Shown here: one piece after another, positions 4,619 through 63,855 of the stretch
How the letters are laid out: each line of letters starts with the position of its first letter
How positions within the stretch are numbered: position 1 is the first letter of the stretch
Source of the DNA: Heliorestis convoluta
GTDB taxonomy: Bacteria; Bacillota; Desulfitobacteriia; Heliobacteriales; Heliobacteriaceae
Reading direction: 5' to 3'
Assembly: GCF_009649955.1 (NCBI RefSeq)
Contig: NZ_CP045875.1
Coordinates: 2,151,501-2,215,500 of the forward strand
Length of the DNA: 64,000 nt
Notes under the pieces: model-generated
What the model was told of the DNA's origin: nothing
Database searches by the model: none
Seen by the model: only the letters and a program-made list of their open reading frames with translations
Program-made: the position numbers and the translations under genes

Positions 4619-4980
4619 CTGGTTTCCTCGCTTTCATTAGAAAGTAGGAGTGGGAAAAGAGTGGTTTGGCAAGGGGATAAAAGAAAGATGTAATCTATAT
4701 GCAATTGGAACTTTGCATAGATGAATTCTTTCAAAGGATGCTACAAAGGCAATTGCCAAGCCTTTATCAGTATATTGTAAAAGAGCTTGGCTTAGCCAAG
4801 GTAATGCACAGAAATCTGAAATAACAGCTGTGCCACCACTAGATAACTATCTGTAGGGTCTGCTCTGATAGAGAGTGTTAAAAAGTTGGGACATATTTCA
4901 AATACTATGCATATGCATTCCAAACTTTTCATAAAGGAAAGCAATCAAAGTTTTTATCGATCAAGAAGGAGTGGTGAAGG
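4619..4980. other. Intergenic region between divergent genes, with a short perfect palindrome
   Basis: 362 bp between the M14 peptidase and the ABC ATPase. I see a compact palindrome CTTGGC-TTA-GCCAAG around 4787-4801 and a GCATATGC repeat near 4908-4917, either of which could be a binding site, but no clear -35/-10 pair. A ribosome binding site AAGGAGTGGTG precedes the downstream ATG at 4981. No gene seen. Confidence 0.4.
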
Positions 4981-5673
4981 ATGCTTGAGGCTCGGCAAAT
5001 TACTCAAATCTATGGGAAACAAGAACGTATCGTGCTCGATCATCTTGACCTACGAATTGGTTCCGGGGAGTTCGTAGCAATCACCGGTCCTTCTGGTTGT
5101 GGCAAGACTACACTGCTTTGTATACTTGGCTCGCTCTTACGACCGACTTCTGGTGAAGTCTGGATTGATGGTCAATGTCTCACAGAAATATCGGCCCAGG
5201 AACTGGCCTATCTGCGAGCAGAAAAAATCGGTTTTGTTTTTCAGTTTCCGGCATTTTTGCCAACGCTAAATATTATGGAAAACCTATTATTGCCCACTGC
5301 CTTGGCTTTGAAAAAAGCGCACCAAAGCCGCAATAACGAAGAAAAAAGTCTAGAGCAGCAGCGTCTAGACCAGGAAGAAGTACACTATCGAGCACTTGTG
5401 CTTTTAGAGCAAGTGGGACTGGCAGGAAGAGAGAAGGACCTCCCTTCCACGCTTTCTGGTGGAGAACAACGGCGGGTTGCTGTGGCGCGAGCTTTAATCA
5501 ACCGACCTCGTTTGTTGTTAGCCGATGAACCAACAGGAGCCCTTGATCAGGAAACAGGAGAGCACCTGATAGATCTATTGGCTCAATGGAATGAAAAAGA
5601 AGGACTTACTCTGGTTATGGCAACGCACGATCATTCCGTTGCACGGCGAGCTCGGCGTCAGATTTGTTTATAA
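4981..5673 (+). CDS. ABC transporter ATP-binding protein, LolD/MacB/FtsE type, without an adjacent permease
   Basis: 230 residues, a single nucleotide-binding domain. Seen: Walker [10 protein letters not shown] (about residue 37), Q-loop [16 protein letters not shown], signature [15 protein letters not shown] (about 158), Walker [17 protein letters not shown] and the switch histidine in ATHDHSV. These match the MacB/LolD/DevA subfamily that powers extrusion of lipoproteins, peptides or drugs by tripartite or mechanotransmission systems. No MacB-like permease lies on either side. Its last six bases overlap the 3' end of the convergent polyprenol kinase gene. The extra charged stretch after the Q-loop (about residues 110-135) is longer than usual. 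Confidence 0.85.
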
Positions 5674-7335
5674 AAAAGGAAAGACGACAGCTGCAGCCAG
5701 GGCTGCGCCAACAATAGAGCTAACAAAATTCACCATGTCATTGGTCATAAAAGGCCATCCCCGGTGGAAGCGATTGGGCTTTCCACTGCGGGTGGTCTTT
5801 TTTTCCGTTTCTTGACCTGTTTCCGCATCTATGTACATGGCCTGCACCGTTGCACCCAGATAACTATCAGCCATAGAACCACCAAGACCGCCGACGATGC
5901 CGGCCAAAATAATCCAAAGGTGACCGGCAAGGTGGCTCCATACATGAACAAGCAGAGAAGTTCCAGATTCGCTGCCCAGTCCAAAAAGCGCTCCAAAGAG
6001 ATAAGGCAGAGCTGTAAAAATCCAAACCGTCAATCCAATCACAAAGCCACCGAGTACAACGGCTGCTGTCCCTAGCATGGTGATGCCACCGCTTGTGCCA
6101 GGCGCAACCACTTTGCCTGTCGTAATCAAACGAGGTGGTTTTTTGCTTAAAACACCTATCTCTGTAGCCCAAGTATCAGCATTCACTGTTGCCATGGTGC
6201 CAATAAAGGCAGCAAAAAGCCAAAGTTCTAAAGGCTGAAAATAGTAAAGAAGAGCAAGCACTGCCCCAAAGCCACCATTGGCCAGCGCTTGTCCAAAATC
6301 ACGGCGACTGCCTTTGTCGAACTTATCGGCGGCTACTTTGGCTTTCTGGTCTTCTCGATACGTAGAAAGAGCAGAGCCATAGACAAAAAAAGCAACCAAG
6401 GTGAGACCCCAGAGGAGGCCGCCAAAGCCAAAAATCAAAGTCCCTACCAAAAGAGCGCCAAAGACACCACTTGCAGAAAGAGAACGACGTCTATAGGCAA
6501 TAAAAGCAATGATTGCGCTCAAGATAAGACCCAGAAAAAGCATCGCCCAAGGCAGAGGAAAGGGCAAGTGAATCAAACCCCATAGCGTAAAAGCGGTTCC
6601 TACAGGAACGGCCACATTATCAAGCCCTTTTAAGGAGATGGCTTCTAAAAATGTAGCCACAAGCGCTGCAATCAGAGAAAAGCCCAGTACAGTGCTAAGA
6701 ACAAAGGCCATTGGAACCTCTAGCGAAGCTTCAGCAGCGCTGCTTAGAGCAGAGCCTGCAACGCTTTCGACAGAACCTATTGTAGAATTAAGGTACAAAC
6801 TTTCCGCAGGATTTCCCATCAAAAAAAGTGTCAAGGCAATGACTATAAAACTAAGGCCAAACATAACGAGAGAGCCTTCGAAGGTACGACGATGGCCTCG
6901 AATCAAGTAAGGCCTTTTGCCATAAGCCCGTCCCAAAATGGCGGCAAAAGCATCGCCCCAAGTCATAGCCATTACAGCTGCTACAGCAATGTAAGCTTGA
7001 TCTTGTGGCCAAAAGAACAGCAACAGCAAAGTAATAGAAAGAGCAAAGTAAACAGTGCCTGGACTATCGCCCGAAAGATCCATTGCTTTTACAAGGCGGT
7101 AGCGATAGCTTATATAGTTCAAAACAATAAAAGAAGCAATGGGAATCAGGCCAATCCAATAGGACTCGAAATAAAGAACAGCGCCAACAATCCACATGCC
7201 AGCACCAATATGTACGATTTTACGAGTAAACTCAGCAGGATAGTTGCGCCATTTCTGAACAAGCGTAGCCAGTATTAGCAAGCCGAAGACATACGCATAG
7301 GAAGCAAAAAGACCGATCAAATCGTGATAGCTCAT
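5668..7335 (-). CDS. Fused phytol/farnesol kinase-like (VTE5/dolichol kinase family) and DUF92 (VTE6/TMEM19 family) membrane protein
   Basis: 555 residues, largely membrane-embedded. N-terminal half (about 1-255): RKIVHIGAGMW, MTWGDAFAAILGRAYGKRP (near 124) and RRTFEGS, the signature of CTP-dependent polyprenol kinases (dolichol kinase, plant VTE5). C-terminal half (about 265-550): NADTWATEIG (near 387), GTSGGI, GGSMADSYLGATVQ and a terminal VNFVSS segment, typical of DUF92, the family of plant VTE6 phytyl-phosphate kinase. Known: VTE5 makes phytyl-phosphate and VTE6 makes phytyl-diphosphate. Inference: this fusion turns a free isoprenoid alcohol, such as farnesol or phytol, into the diphosphate in two steps. 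Start ATG at 7335 follows an AGAGAGGGAT-type ribosome binding site. Confidence 0.85.
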   Translation of the reverse strand: MSYHDLIGLFASYAYVFGLLILATLVQKWRNYPAEFTRKIVHIGAGMWIVGAVLYFESYWIGLIPIASFIVLNYISYRYRLVKAMDLSGDSPGTVYFALSITLLLLFFWPQDQAYIAVAAVMAMTWGDAFAAILGRAYGKRPYLIRGHRRTFEGSLVMFGLSFIVIALTLFLMGNPAESLYLNSTIGSVESVAGSALSSAAEASLEVPMAFVLSTVLGFSLIAALVATFLEAISLKGLDNVAVPVGTAFTLWGLIHLPFPLPWAMLFLGLILSAIIAFIAYRRRSLSASGVFGALLVGTLIFGFGGLLWGLTLVAFFVYGSALSTYREDQKAKVAADKFDKGSRRDFGQALANGGFGAVLALLYYFQPLELWLFAAFIGTMATVNADTWATEIGVLSKKPPRLITTGKVVAPGTSGGITMLGTAAVVLGGFVIGLTVWIFTALPYLFGALFGLGSESGTSLLVHVWSHLAGHLWIILAGIVGGLGGSMADSYLGATVQAMYIDAETGQETEKKTTRSGKPNRFHRGWPFMTNDMVNFVSSIVGAALAAAVVFPFL

Positions 7336-7978: not shown

Positions 7979-9643
7979 TTACTTGGGAATAACAAAAGAA
8001 CTTTTCAAAGATACGATATGATTAAAAACAAGACGATCTTCTCTGGTATCTTTGGGGTCTACATTAAAGTAACCGTGACGGAAAAACTGAAACTTGTCAT
8101 GGGCTTTACTATCTTTCATCGTTGGCTCTACAAAACCAGCAGAAATCTCCATGGAATTGGGGTTAATTTGCTCCAAAAAAGAACCATCCTTTTCGCCTTC
8201 TTGATCAAGAAGAAGAGGTTCATAGAGGCGAAACTCTGCAGGAAGAGCCTGAGAAGCTTCAACCCAGTGAATGGTACCTTTTACTTTCCGGCCTGTAAAG
8301 CCACTGCCGCTTTTTGTCTCGGGATCATAGGTACAGTGTAGCTCAATAACGTCCCCATTCTCATCTTTAATCACTTCTTCACAGCGAATAAAGTAAGCAT
8401 GCTTTAACCGCACTTCATTGCCAGGAAAGAGGCGGAAGTATTTTTTCGGTGGCTTTTCCATAAAGTCATCTTGTTCTATATAAATCTCACGAGAGAAAGG
8501 AATCTGACGATGGCCCATCTCTAGATTTTCAGGATTGTTTTCCGCGTCCAACATTTCTATCTGGCCTTCTGGATAGTTGGTAATCACTACTTTTAGAGGT
8601 CGAAGTACTGCCATAGTACGAGGCGCTTTGAGCTTTAAGTCTTCACGAATAAAATGCTCTAACATTTTCACATCAACGACACTATTGCTTTTGGCCACAC
8701 CAATCTCACGGGCAAAGTTACGAATTGCCTCTGGTGTAAAGCCGCGGCGTCGAAGGCCTGAGATGGTAGGCATCCGAGGATCATCCCAACCATCAACGAC
8801 TTTCTCGTCTACCAGTTGCTTGAGCTTGCGCTTGCTCATTACCGTCTGGGTCAAATTGAGGCGAGCAAATTCGTACTGATGAGGCTGTGCTTCCATTTCA
8901 CACTCTCGGATCACCCAGTCGTAGAGAGGACGGTGATCTTCAAACTCCAAAGTACAGATGGAATGGGTGACACCTTCAATGGCATCGCCAAGAGGATGGG
9001 CGTAATCGTACATCGGATAGATGCACCAGCTATCTCCCGTGTTGTGGTGCGTCGCATGGGCAATGCGATAGAGTACAGGATCGCGCATATTTATGTTGGG
9101 GGAAGACATATCGATCTTGGCACGAAGAACTTTCGCACCATCGCCGAACTCGCCTTGTCGCATCCGCATAAAAAGATCAAGATTCTCTTCTACAGAACGA
9201 TTTCGATAGGGACTTTCTTGTCCCGGTTCTGTTAATGTACCGCGCGTTTTTCGTATTTCTTCTGCTGAAAGATCACAGACATAGGCTTTTCCTTTTTGAA
9301 TCAATAGGACAGCACGATTGAACATTTCTTCAAAATAGTTAGAGGCGAAAAAAAGACCATCCCACTGGTAGCCAAGCCAGGCTACATCTTCTTGAATGGA
9401 TTTAACAAACTCTACGTCTTCTTTTAGCGGGTTCGTGTCATCAAAGCGTAAGTTTGTTTTACCGCTAAAATCATCGGCTAGATCAAAGTTCAGGCAAATC
9501 GACTTGGCATGGCCGATATGAAGGTATCCATTCGGTTCTGGTGGAAAGCGAGTAATCACTTCATCAACTTTGCCTGTGCGCAAATCTTCGATAATAATAT
9601 TTTTAATAAAATTTGATGTTGTGGCCTTCGGTTCCAATCTCAA
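7979..9643 (-). CDS. glnS: Glutaminyl-tRNA synthetase
   Basis: 554 residues, the usual length for bacterial GlnRS. Seen: class I signature [15 protein letters not shown] near residue 40 with the HIGH motif, and the KMSKS-equivalent VMSKRKL near 269; the C-terminal anticodon-binding beta-barrels follow. It charges tRNA-Gln directly in the cytosol. Many Firmicutes lack GlnRS and use GatCAB transamidation, so its presence is consistent with the lateral acquisition known for this family in some Clostridia. No C-terminal YqeY domain is attached. It is a single-gene unit closed by the terminator at 7916-7959. Confidence 0.97.
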
Positions 9644-13440: not shown

Positions 13441-15017
13441 ATGACAGAAAAGAAAGTTTGTCCTTTTTGTGGTGCTGAATTTACAGAAAATGACCAATGT
13501 CCCTTTTGCACGCATGGGAATGAGGTAGGTAATGATCAAGCTACAACGGAAAATGCAGGGGAAGATAGAAAGGAGGGCATAGAGGAAGCGACAGAAGCAC
13601 CTACAGAGAAAAAGGCAGCAGAGACAGCAAGTGAAGAGGCAACGGAGGAAGCACCTACAGAGAAAAAGGTAGCAGAGACAGCAAGTGAAGAGGTAACGGA
13701 GGAAGCACCTACAGAGAAAAGGTAGCAGAGACAGCAAGCGAAGTGGTAACGGAGGAAGCGCCTACAGAGAAAAAGGCAGCAGAGACAGTAGGCGAAGAGG
13801 TAACGGAGGAAGCACCTACAGAGAAAAAGGTAAAAGTGACAGCAACTGAAGAGGCAGTAACTGAAGAAGTAACTGAGAATTTGGCTGAAAGTAAAAGAGT
13901 GGAAAAAGCTGAATCAGAAGCGATAGCGTTGCAAGCACCGATTTCTTCATCTAATACGGAAGCGTCTGACACGGAATCGTCAAAAAGCATTTGGGAGAAA
14001 GTTTTTTTAGCGAACAAAGCGCTATTACCTCTCTTTGCTGTAGGCTTTATTATTGTTATTGCTGCGACCATTCTTCTATTTAACTATAACAATGAAAAAA
14101 AGAGAGAAGCTCTATACGTAAGCAATATAGAAAAAATTGCTACGGAGCATCGCTCTATCCAAAGCGCTTTTGCGACGATTTTGCAAGAAAGCCTACGAGA
14201 GCGTTCAAGGGGCATGACAGTTGAAATGCTCAATAGTCGCTTAGAAGGTGAGATGAACAGGATTCAGCAATTACAAGAAAGAACCGAGGCAGTAACGCCT
14301 CCAAAGAACTATCAAAGTTTTCACCAAAACATAAGGGAACTGTTAGAACTACAAAAAATTATTTTTCAAGATATCATAATGGTGCTTCAAAACCCTCTGA
14401 ATCAAGAAACAGATAGAATCATCGATCGACTTTATGGCACGATCATAGAGTCGAAAGAGCTCTCTAGCAATGTACAGCTTCCGTCCAACCAAAGGTTTCA
14501 TACTACTGATTTCGTCAGTATTACAAACCAGCTTGCTCTCTATGTGGAAGAAGAGCGGAAAATATACAAAGAAAAACTAGAAAAACTAGAAAAGAATCAG
14601 GCTTTTTTTGACCGTCTTGATGGGATCCAACAACGCTGGGATAGTGCAAAAACAGATCTAGAGCATGCACTGAACCTTTTCCGCGGTGGTGAAGTTCCTT
14701 GGTATGATTATTACGCTACCATAGAAGAAGCAAAAAGAGTTCGTCAATCCATTCGTGATGAGCTCAATGGTGTGCCAGCACCGGCGGGATTAGAAGAGTT
14801 AAAAACCCAACTAAACCGATTGCTTACTGATGCGGTTTACTATTGTGACCTTATGGAGAGGGCAGGAACTCTTTACCTTTATGGTGATTACGACTATAGC
14901 GAGCTACGTCGGCAAGAAGCGCAAGAATTGAACCAAAAGGTTCAAAAAAACTATGGAAATTACAAAAAGAACTATCAGATTCAAAAAGAAGTTATGACTA
15001 ACTTAAATAATTTGTAA
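13441..15017 (+). pseudogene. Zinc-ribbon membrane protein with 54-bp tandem repeats, frame broken at an A-run
   Basis: Two frames form one 525-residue protein if an A is restored at 13717-13720. Seen: an N-terminal zinc ribbon (CPFCGAEF ... CPFCTHG, residues 6-25); about five copies of an acidic 18-residue repeat, EEAPTEKKVAETASEEVT-like, encoded by 54-bp units from about 13588; one membrane segment (LLPLFAVGFIIVIAATILLF) near the middle; then a coiled-coil-rich extracytoplasmic region to the C terminus. The third repeat unit has AAAA where the others have AAAAA, giving an immediate TAG at 13723. Cytosolic zinc ribbon plus membrane anchor recalls YvbJ/TcaA-like wall-stress proteins, but no such domain was recognised. 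Function unknown. Confidence 0.75.
13588..13860 (+). repeat. Tandem 54-bp coding repeats (about five units)
   Basis: Units start GAAGCACCTACAGAGAAAAA and encode an 18-residue Glu/Thr/Ala/Lys-rich repeat. Units 1, 2 and 4 keep 54 bp; unit 3 is 53 bp; unit 5 diverges at its end. High identity suggests recent expansion by slippage or recombination. Confidence 0.9.
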
Positions 15018-45082: not shown

Positions 45083-48064
45083 TTAGCTCACCTTCCTTAC
45101 ATCAACCAGAAAGGCTTTGTACTCTGGTATGTGTGTATTGGCATCGCCGATATGAGGCGTAAGGATGTTGGTGATATCGCCTTTGACAAGCCCTTGGTAA
45201 CCAAAGTGCCAAGTAAGACCAACTTGCTCTACTGTTTTACCTTGTACAGATAGAGTTTGTACTCGCTCTGTTACCATGGCGACCGCTTTAATGGCGCCAC
45301 GGGCTGATGAGACTTCTACCATATCGCCATGCTTAATGCCACGTTCACGGGCAAGGGAAGGACTCATCTCAACGAAAAGCGCTGGCATTAGTTCAGCCAA
45401 CCAGGGCATGTTGCGCGTAATAGCGCCCGTATGCCAGTGTTCGCAAACTCGCCAAGTGGAACAGACAATGGGGTATTGAGAAGCGTCGCCTCGCTCATTG
45501 CTTTCCCAGATCCGAATGGCTGGATTGTATTGTACTTTCGAAAGCTTGTTCTCTACAGGGCTTTCGTAAGGTTCATAATGCTCTGGAAAAGGTCCTTCGT
45601 TCATGGCATTCACAGAATAGAAGCGAGCCTGTCCTTCCGGTAGCATGATGAAAGGACTGGTACCGCCCGCTTCTTGCGGAGAGCGAGTCGGTGCAAAATC
45701 AGGTACATCATAACCAACCCAGCGCTCTTGCTGGGGATCCCACCAGATAGACTTCTTTTCTTCGGACCAAGGCTTTCCAGAAGGATCACAGTTGGCACGG
45801 TTGTAAATAATTCGACGGTTGGCAGGCCAAGCAAAGCCCCATTCTAGATAGACACCAAGGCCAGAAGGATCATCAGTACCACGACGCTTGGCGTTGTTGC
45901 CAGCTTCTGTGTACATACCGCTGTAGATCCAGTTACCACAGGCTGTGGTGCCGTCATCTTGTAAAGCGCCAAAGCCAGGCAGTTGCTGACCTGTTGTTAG
46001 ATCTTTGCCGTTAATCTCTCGAGCAACAGCATCGACAAAGCTCGGTAGATTTTCAGAGGAGCCATAATTCCATGTAAGATACTTAATAGGCTCATCTTCA
46101 GGCTTGTTGCTATTTTCATAGTGAGACTTGATGGCTCTAGCAATGTGATCAATAATCCAAGATTCTTGCTTTGTATCGCCAGGACCTTCTACAGCTTGCC
46201 AACGGTATTGAATTAACCTTCCGCTGTGCGTCACTGAGCCTTCTTTTTCTAAGAACGATGTGGCTGGAAGTAGAAAGACCTCTGTTTTAATATCTTTTGG
46301 ATTCACGCCAGGGCGTTTCCAGAAGGCTGCTGTTTCATTTTCGAAAATATCGATCTGAACCATCCAGTCGAGTTCTTCCATCGCCTTGGCTTCGTGGTTC
46401 GTGTTCGGTCCCGATACAACAGGGTTTTGCCCCCAGTTAAAGAGACCTTTGATCGTACCTGCCATCATATCTTCAAAAAGGGCGATATGGGAATGGTTAG
46501 CCCCTCTCTTTTGCTTGGGAAGGTAATGATAAGCTAGGTCGTTGTCAAGGTTCGCATGATCGCCCCACCAGGCTTTCAAGAGACTGGCTATAAACTTGGG
46601 TCGGTTTGTCCAGAAACCGCCTTTTGGTGTCGTAGCATTGTAGGCAGCCAGATCGACATGGTCGCCATCGTTCGGCGCAGGCATATAGCCCGGTAGTAAA
46701 TGAAAGAGACAGGCCATATCCGTCGATCCCTGAACGTTGGAGTGACCGCGCAGAGCGTTTACACCGCCACCAGGGCGACCGACATTGCCTAGTAATAATT
46801 GCAGCATAGAAAGAGCACGACAGTTCTGCGCTCCTACAGTATGTTGTGTCTGTCCCATGGCATAAAGAATCGTTCCTGTTTTATCAGGGCTTGCTGTTTC
46901 GGTGAACATCTCAGCCACTTGCAAAAACTTCTCTTTAGGCATGCCGACAATGGAACAAACAGTGTCTACATCGTAGCGAGCGTAATGCTTTTTCATCATC
47001 TGGAAGACACAACGAGGGTCTTGTAAAGTCATGTCTTTGAGGGGGTTGCCTTGTCCATCGGTTTTGTAAGCCCAAGTCGCTTTATCGTAGGTTCTTTTCT
47101 CTTCATCGTAACCAGAGAAGAGACCTTCTTCGAAGTCATAGTCGTCATGGACGATGTAGGATGCGTTCGTATAGTGCAGTACATATTCGTGGTGGTAGCG
47201 ACCTGTCTCGAAGATATAGTGGAAAAGGCCTCCGAAGAAAGGAATGTCAGTACCGCTTCTCATGGGCGCGTACAGATCCGCTCTTGCTGAGGTACGAGTA
47301 AAGCGTGGATCTACGTGAATAATCTTAGCGCCTCGCTTCCTCTTCGCTTCCATCAGCCAAGTGAAGGAGACAGGGTGATTTTCAGCAGCATTACTTCCAA
47401 TAATAAGAGCACAGTCCGTGTTCTTAAAATCAATCCAGTGATTGGTCATAGCACCTCTTCCGAATGTGGCCCCCAGACCGGCGACCGTAGCGCTATGTCA
47501 TATTCGGGCTTGGTGCTCAATATTGATAACGCCAATGGAGCGCATCAACTTGGAAATTAAGTAAAGATCTTCGTTATTTAATATAGAAGAACCGAGGCTG
47601 GCGATGGCTTCTGTGCGATTGACGATAACATCTTGTTCGTTCTTATGTACAATAGAAGCGTTGCGAGTCTCTGCTGTTAATTCACCAATGCGCTTGAAAG
47701 TCCATTCCCAAGACTTCTCTTCCCAAGACGTAGCGCCAGGCGCGCGATAGAGAACTTTGGTTACACGTTCATCGTTCTTTGCAGTCTGGAATGAAGCAGC
47801 GCCTTTGGAACAATTCGTACCTTTGTTGACGGGGTTGTCAGGATCACCTTCTACGTTCACCAGCTCTCCATTGACTGTGTGACAAATGACGCCACAGCCC
47901 CCGGAACAGAAACAGCAAATGGAAGTCGTTTCTTTGGCATCGGCAATCCGCAACCTTGGCGTGCTTGCTTCTAGACTATCAAGCGAAAAGCCTAAGCTTG
48001 TAGCCATGACGGCTGTGGTCGCGCCTGATAACTGCAGAAAGCGTCTGCGGCTTAATCCGGACAT
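45083..48064 (-). CDS. fdnG: Formate dehydrogenase catalytic subunit, selenocysteine-containing, Tat-exported
   Basis: 993 residues if the in-frame TGA at 47498-47500 is read as selenocysteine (residue 189). Context: EHQARI-Sec-HSATVAGLGATFGRGAMTNHW, matching E. coli FdnG RI-Sec-HGPTVASL. Seen: twin-arginine signal SRRRFLQL, first [4Fe-4S] site CCFCSGGCG, and molybdopterin (bis-MGD) domains through the C terminus. It oxidises formate to CO2 outside the membrane. Just after the TGA a hairpin with GGUCU in its loop resembles the bacterial SECIS. Standard annotation would split this gene at 47449/47498. First gene of fdnGHI. Confidence 0.95.
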
Positions 48065-63687: not shown

Positions 63688-63714
63688 CTCAATGTTAAAA
63701 ACGAATAGTGCCCT

Positions 63715-63855
63715 TTTGAACGCTGAGTTTCTCATACTTGGATGAGAAAGCGGGGGAACCAATTTTTTGGGGTGAGTCCGGTATGAACCGGTAGGGTGAT
63801 CCATTCATCCGAATCCGTCAGCTAACTTCGTAAGCGTGGATGGTGTAAAGGGGTC
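63715..63855 (+). ncRNA. Cyclic di-AMP riboswitch (ydaO/yuaA leader)
   Basis: Seen: GCGGGGGAACCA, GGGGTGAGTCC, ACCGGTAGGGT and CCGAATCCGTCAGCTAAC followed by TTCGTAAGCG, the sequence and order of the ydaO-yuaA consensus. A rho-independent terminator follows at 63902-63939. Known: c-di-AMP binding promotes termination and usually controls potassium transport, osmolyte or wall-hydrolase genes. Confidence 0.93.

Follow-up and report, generated by a model that had tools for sequence, protein, structure and literature searches.

The window analysed here is a stretch of 64,000 nucleotides of Heliorestis convoluta (contig NZ_CP045875.1, positions 2,151,501 to 2,215,500), and all positions given below refer to it. 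An open reading frame (ORF) of 555 aa runs on its minus strand from an ATG start at 7335 down to 5668, and the plus strand of the same interval carries stop codons throughout. The gene shares 6 bases with the 3' end of a plus-strand ABC-transporter ATPase gene and is located approximately 640 bases downstream of a minus-strand glutaminyl-tRNA synthetase gene. Eight of the nine genomes of the heliobacterial family contain an ORF with these two domains, so it is neither a chance frame nor a product of misassembly. The original prediction of a two-domain fusion of 555 residues thus describes a real gene, composed of an N-terminal CdsA/Sec59-like membrane domain and a full DUF92 (VTE6-type) domain. 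Its features are as follows:

5668..7335, minus strand: gene of the fused membrane protein, 555 aa (ORF and translation; the span includes the stop codon)
6562..7335, minus strand: N-terminal domain, residues 1-258, CdsA/Sec59-like, the proposed polyprenol kinase half (AlphaFold2 model, VIA-align)
6952..6954, minus strand: codon of Asp128, N domain (GD..A...G motif), conserved in 92 of the 93 rows of the N-domain alignment
6700..6810, minus strand: insert of about 37 residues (176-212), where the 8 other sequences of alignment A1 have mostly gaps
6619..6621, minus strand: codon of Asp239, N domain (DN..VP motif), likewise conserved in 92 of the 93 rows
5671..6549, minus strand: C-terminal DUF92/COG1836 domain, residues 263-555, the proposed polyprenyl-phosphate kinase half (PF01940, AlphaFold2)
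6175..6177, minus strand: codon of Asp387, C domain (ADTWATE motif), conserved in all 115 rows of the C-domain alignment
5866..5868, minus strand: codon of Asp490, C domain (DS.LGA motif), likewise conserved in all 115 rows

Several other features of the window were recorded. The glutaminyl-tRNA synthetase gene (7979-9643, minus strand) encodes a protein that scores over the cut-off of both TIGR00440 and NF011291; Clostridia generally form Gln-tRNA via transamidation, and this enzyme is uncommon among them. The gene of a formate dehydrogenase alpha subunit (45083-48064, minus strand) is interrupted by a single in-frame TGA (context EHQARI-U-HSATVAG), which is likely a selenocysteine codon. A c-di-AMP riboswitch (RF00379, 93.5 bits; 63711-63850, plus strand) is located just after a gene identified by eye as stomatin/SPFH-like, and two adjacent plus-strand ORFs (13441-13725 and 13743-15017) carry imperfect acidic repeats of the EEAPTEKK type ahead of a membrane segment.

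The C-terminal half is covered by PF01940 (DUF92) over residues 272-544, with an E-value of 2.7e-71 and 240.3 bits against a cut-off of 27.5, the match extending over profile positions 2-251 of 251. It lies inside PF01940 but scores below the cut-off of the narrower DUF92 model TIGR00297 (127.8 bits against 205.85), and is therefore not placed in the latter. Ten residues of this half (R345, Q349, D387, E392, D490, S491, Q498, E511, N532 and N536) occur in all 115 rows of the C-domain alignment. PF01940 is equated with COG1836 in a passage of PMC5898192, and COG1836 includes Arabidopsis At1g78620, predicted for phytol-phosphate metabolism (PMC3223725); in an excerpt of PMC9782597, VTE6, a phytyl-phosphate kinase, is tied to the same COG. 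Modelled alone with AlphaFold2, the C half reached a pLDDT of 94.2. Its first Foldseek match was CdsA, a weak one (E 0.27), and VIA-align returned an unnamed membrane protein and MgtE at Z 6.6-6.2, as well as CdsA at Z 5.9 over 132 residues at 3.6 A.

No family passed its cut-off for residues 1-265 in the family-model search. CTP_transf_1 (PF01148) reached 11.1 bits on the N half against a cut-off of 24 (E 0.36) and matched one of 28 fused members, with a best E-value of 0.0018; likewise, no family passed its cut-off in 10 N-half proteins searched with Pfam and 9 with NCBIfam. As it scores below the PF01148 cut-off, we call the N half similar to VTE5/FOLK/Sec59 (COG0170) and do not place it in that family.

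The AlphaFold2 model of the fused protein, built on 28 fused relatives, has a mean pLDDT of 88.6 and a pTM of 0.79, with lower pLDDT in the insert at residues 176-212. In VIA-align, the top match of the N half (residues 48-257) was CdsA (4q2g_B, Z 8.2, 157 residues, 4.5 A), with an unrelated helical protein at Z 8.1. Foldseek placed CdsA at E 0.52 for the fused model and gave nothing at E ≤ 0.001 for either this model or that of the C half, and a sequence search of the PDB returned chance matches only. Seven residues (R38, K39, H42, D128, E231, D239 and N240) are found in at least 90 of the 93 N-domain rows. The earlier description of the N half as VTE5-like draws on the match of the AlphaFold fold to CdsA and on the conserved polar residues, and finds no counterpart in a database hit; the label is one of predicted fold and motifs only.

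The profiles of the two halves match each other with an E-value of 5.6e-5 and a probability of 66%, and Asp128 pairs with Asp387 in this comparison. As the polar cores are kept in both halves, neither looks degenerate. We read the two halves as two putative consecutive active sites, on the basis of the alignments and the models. The claim that two joined membrane domains resembling members of the cytidylyltransferase superfamily are present is supported.

The original prediction had also considered that the host might be a heliobacterium, whose bacteriochlorophyll (BChl) g carries a farnesyl tail. This proved correct for the host, as the DNA belongs to Heliorestis convoluta, whose genome encodes both BchY (354 bits) and BchZ (402 bits), and for the tail it agrees with a passage of PMC7143216, in which BChl g is esterified with farnesol. 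The bchY and bchZ genes lie approximately 400 kb from the fused gene, which is located outside the photosynthesis gene cluster. Inspection by eye of the neighbours of the fused gene and its homologues (L062, L087, L059, L060 and four Chloroflexota N-gene loci) revealed no pigment genes.

In the sample of the class (82 genomes), 13 genomes gave a DUF92 match. Within the heliobacterial family, the fusion forms a single frame of 508-580 aa in eight of nine genomes, the ninth (G081, 87% complete) being devoid of it. The same eight genomes encode BchY at more than 350 bits, and nowhere else in the class does BchY exceed 38 bits; the pattern of BchZ agrees, with G081 lacking it as well. In another family of the class (f2), one genome (G034) has a fused frame of 499 aa and four others have a stand-alone DUF92.

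By the original prediction, a wide occurrence of this fusion in non-phototrophic Clostridia would speak against it, and the survey did find the fusion there. Among 398 Bacillota genomes of at least 90% completeness, a DUF92 match was found in 47 and none in 351. Fused-length frames, i.e. those of 497 aa or more, occur in 5 heliobacteria and in 15 other genomes, and both halves were confirmed in 14 of the latter (in G413 through locus L076), with G143 not confirmed. No BchY was found in any of these 15 genomes, nor in G034. The fusion was therefore discarded as a marker of phototrophy, and, as fused relatives occur in many non-phototrophs, the presumed activity is not bound to pigment. The alignment of one of the 15 (G282, locus L047) with the query is identical to that of Thermovorax subterraneus (L120).

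Beyond this sample, the best 80 of 528 confirmed hits comprise fusions in 4 heliobacteria, in Ca. Chloroheliaceae L227-5C and at 22 other loci, which belong to Bacillota, Spirochaetota, Calditrichota, Myxococcota and further groups. Among the same 80 hits, the two domains are encoded by adjoining separate genes at 17 loci. The test for BchY covered 47 genomes, representing 50 loci, and 16 further genomes, and gave no real match in the 10 tested of the 22 named fused loci outside heliobacteria and Ca. Chloroheliaceae.

At 14 of the 17 separate-gene loci (L063, L064, L067, L068, L079, L086, L090, L100, L101, L102, L114, L115, L116 and L126) the two ORFs share a reading frame, and in 10 cases a single stop lies between them, an arrangement that the choice of loci by tblastn probably favours. 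A contig titled Candidatus Parcubacteria (L078) carries a DUF92 that groups inside Chloroflexus, which is likely a binning error. The plasmid collection yielded one weak DUF92 match, in Thermomicrobium.

The closest relatives of the heliobacterial protein are found in Chloroflexota. It shares 54% identity over 548 residues with the L227-5C fusion, 58-59% with the stand-alone DUF92 proteins of two other members of the L227-5C order, 48% (N) and 52% (C) with the separate proteins of genome G615, and 37% with the Thermovorax fusion. In the N-domain tree, heliobacteria and L227-5C form a group with a support of 97, which is joined by 20 further Chloroflexota with a support of 96. In the C-domain tree, which used 115 of 132 distinct rows (the 17 removed by hand were near-duplicates and a single poor row), heliobacteria are united with L227-5C and with the two members of its order that have DUF92 only, with a support of 99, inside Chloroflexota. 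The concatenated tree of 51 hand-picked rows joins heliobacteria with both Ca. Chloroheliaceae genomes (100/100), and these with 11 other Chloroflexota (100/99). The second of the two genomes (G707) appears to be a Ca. Chlorohelix genome, judging from its order, its large contigs and the presence of BchY.

Alternative topologies were evaluated with AU tests, which for the N domain used 79 of 93 rows after removal of 14 long or distant ones. Grouping of heliobacteria with the Bacillota rows, as expected from vertical inheritance, was rejected (p 4.5e-7), as was a clade of heliobacteria and the Tepidanaerobacter-type fusions (N domain, p 3.7e-39). A single clade of all sampled bacterial fused proteins was also rejected (p 1.7e-5; N domain, p 1.4e-52). 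These rejections imply that the fusion arose at least twice among bacteria and that the gene was exchanged between Chloroflexota and heliobacteria, probably in the direction of heliobacteria. A branch with a support of 97/97 suggests that heliobacteria are nested within Ca. Chloroheliaceae, but a topology with the two Chloroheliaceae together also passes the AU test (p 0.107).

Within the L227-5C order (5 genomes), the fusion and BchY occur together in G462 and G707, and DUF92 alone, with neither the N domain nor BchY, in G463, G464 and G706. Among 201 evenly drawn Chloroflexota, the heliobacterial-type N domain was detected in 14 of 15 BchY-positive genomes and in 3 of 186 others (G517, G689 and G641), when defined as a score of at least 165 bits with the A2 model, a line chosen after the scores were known. 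The Fisher p-value of 8e-18 for this association ignores kinship. DUF92 itself is present in all 15 BchY-positive genomes and in 53 of the 186 others (count of listing). Weaker matches of the N type occur in further BchY-negative Chloroflexota, and the BchY-positive G701 has only a weak one; the close N clade includes three BchY-negative genomes (L081, Thermoflexus L090 and L101). On the DUF92 tree, the link with phototrophy comprises only two independent contrasts and is not significant once kinship is considered, so the association could reflect ancestry.

In the Thermoflexus-type locus L090, the N-domain and DUF92 genes are separated by a 198-aa ORF (4717-5310) that matched no Pfam family, and another occupies the matching place in L101. 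In Anaerolineae SJ142 (G476, locus L095), which is BchY-positive with 476 bits, DUF92 groups with that of BchY-negative Anaerolineae.

Based on these observations, we give an even chance to the reading that the protein is a single-chain two-step isoprenoid-alcohol kinase, most likely acting on farnesol to yield farnesyl diphosphate, and that its gene belongs to a phototrophy-linked Chloroflexota lineage. The analogy comes from an excerpt of PMC9782597, in which phytol is phosphorylated by VTE5 and then by VTE6, with a mention of CTP preference. The CdsA/Sec59-like N half would transfer a phosphate, by analogy from CTP, onto an isoprenoid alcohol to give the monophosphate, and the VTE6-type DUF92 half would add the second phosphate to give the diphosphate. 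In heliobacteria, the substrate would most likely be farnesol released from BChl g, and the resulting farnesyl diphosphate could be reused by bacteriochlorophyll synthase or other prenyltransferases. The heliobacterial ancestor would most likely have acquired the gene from, or shared it with, type-I-reaction-centre Chloroflexota (Ca. Chloroheliaceae). The idea of pigment salvage thus survives in a narrower form, as the heliobacterial copy belongs to another lineage, common to phototrophic Chloroflexota.

A stronger proposal, which we advance tentatively, is that this is a true phototrophy gene, i.e. a farnesol recycler passed between type-I-reaction-centre Chloroflexota and the heliobacterial ancestor along with a chlG/bchG-like synthase and a b6f-like complex, and that the N domain marks recyclers of (bacterio)chlorophyll tails. 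In the sections of Tsuji et al. (PMC10972752) that bear on these genes, the same Chloroflexota possess a heliobacteria-related cytochrome b6f-like cluster and a chlG-like bchG paralogue that is sister to BChl g synthases. The fused gene would be a third item shared with heliobacteria, beside these two.

It seems rather unlikely that the protein serves general salvage of isoprenoid alcohols (farnesol, geranylgeraniol or environmental phytol, directed to quinones, carotenoids and cell-wall carriers) and that its match with phototrophy is a matter of ancestry. This would be in line with the same architecture in the non-phototrophs Thermovorax, Thermosediminibacter, Sporosalibacterium, Archangium, Calditrichota and Treponema-type bacteria, with the Thermoflexus-type non-phototrophs within the close clade, and with the two contrasts mentioned above. 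However, the N domain tracks BchY with no exception sampled in the heliobacterial family and the Ca. Chloroheliaceae order, and the BchY-negative members of that order retain DUF92 without it.

We consider improbable a lipid kinase or cytidylyltransferase for some other substrate, such as an undecaprenol- or dolichol-type polyprenol, diacylglycerol or an ether lipid. The CdsA/Sec59 superfamily does take in CDP-diacylglycerol synthases, dolichol kinases and diacylglycerol kinases, the top match among solved structures is a CDP-diacylglycerol synthase, and the gene context of archaeal homologues, as given in a passage of PMC5898192, points to uppS and not to pigment. On the other hand, phytol is acted on in plants by a pair made up of DUF92 and a Sec59-like protein (excerpt of PMC9782597), the same pair is predicted for archaeal isoprenoid metabolism (same passage of PMC5898192), and the absence of DUF92 from 351 of 398 Bacillota genomes means that it is no core lipid enzyme there. 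Least credible, and very improbable, is an ordinary member of an old two-domain family of Bacillota, inherited vertically by heliobacteria. Fusions in other Bacillota, as well as the one in a further genome of the class (G034), would be compatible with such a history, but the two AU rejections of heliobacterial grouping with Bacillota exclude it on the present trees, unless denser sampling alters their topology.

The recycling of pigment tails is well studied in plants. Our search of the open-access literature yielded no account of such recycling in anoxygenic phototrophs, nor, in the portions of that literature accessible to us, of a polyprenol kinase fusion from a bacterial phototroph. If the farnesol kinase reading is true, one gene would tie heliobacteria to the recently found type-I Chloroflexota, and would provide a simple one-protein test of pigment-tail salvage in a farnesyl-tailed phototroph.

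The architecture itself is already known, and it is the phylogenetic company of the heliobacterial protein that is unexpected. A passage of Makarova et al. (PMC5898192), published in 2015, describes Mbar_A3310 of Methanosarcina barkeri as a fusion of a Sec59-like domain with arCOG02245/COG1836, and its authors reached by HHpred, for the archaeal proteins, the reading that we give to the two halves. As far as that passage goes, Mbar_A3310 and the heliobacterial protein agree in their two superfamily domains and in the order of these (Sec59-like first), with a conserved Asp in each and the Sec59 likeness resting here on the fold, and the role predicted for the archaeal protein is also a kinase step in isoprenoid metabolism. 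They differ in that Mbar_A3310 is archaeal and linked by its context to uppS; it is likened here by description, as our trees consist of bacterial proteins.

The plant and cyanobacterial phytol kinase VTE5 and phytyl-phosphate kinase VTE6 offer a second comparison, as the C half is of the DUF92/COG1836 type like VTE6, and the proposed logic, two consecutive phosphorylations of a chlorophyll-tail alcohol, would be the same. However, VTE5 and VTE6 are two separate proteins acting on a phytyl tail, whereas here a single protein, whose N half is VTE5-like by fold and motifs, would act on a farnesyl one. Among solved structures, CdsA (CDP-diacylglycerol synthase; 4q2g, 4q2e) has the fold nearest to that of the N half and also matches the C half weakly, but it acts on another substrate class and shares 10-16% identity. 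The fusions of Thermovorax, Tepidanaerobacter, Thermosediminibacter and other non-phototrophic Bacillota, in whose tested genomes no BchY was found, have the same architecture but form a separate branch in all trees. Closest of all are the proteins of Ca. Chloroheliaceae (L227-5C and G707), which share the architecture, occupy the nearest branch of the trees and come from BchY-positive genomes, but belong to Chloroflexota hosts described in the relevant part of PMC10972752 as having the pathways of BChl a and c, and not that of BChl g.
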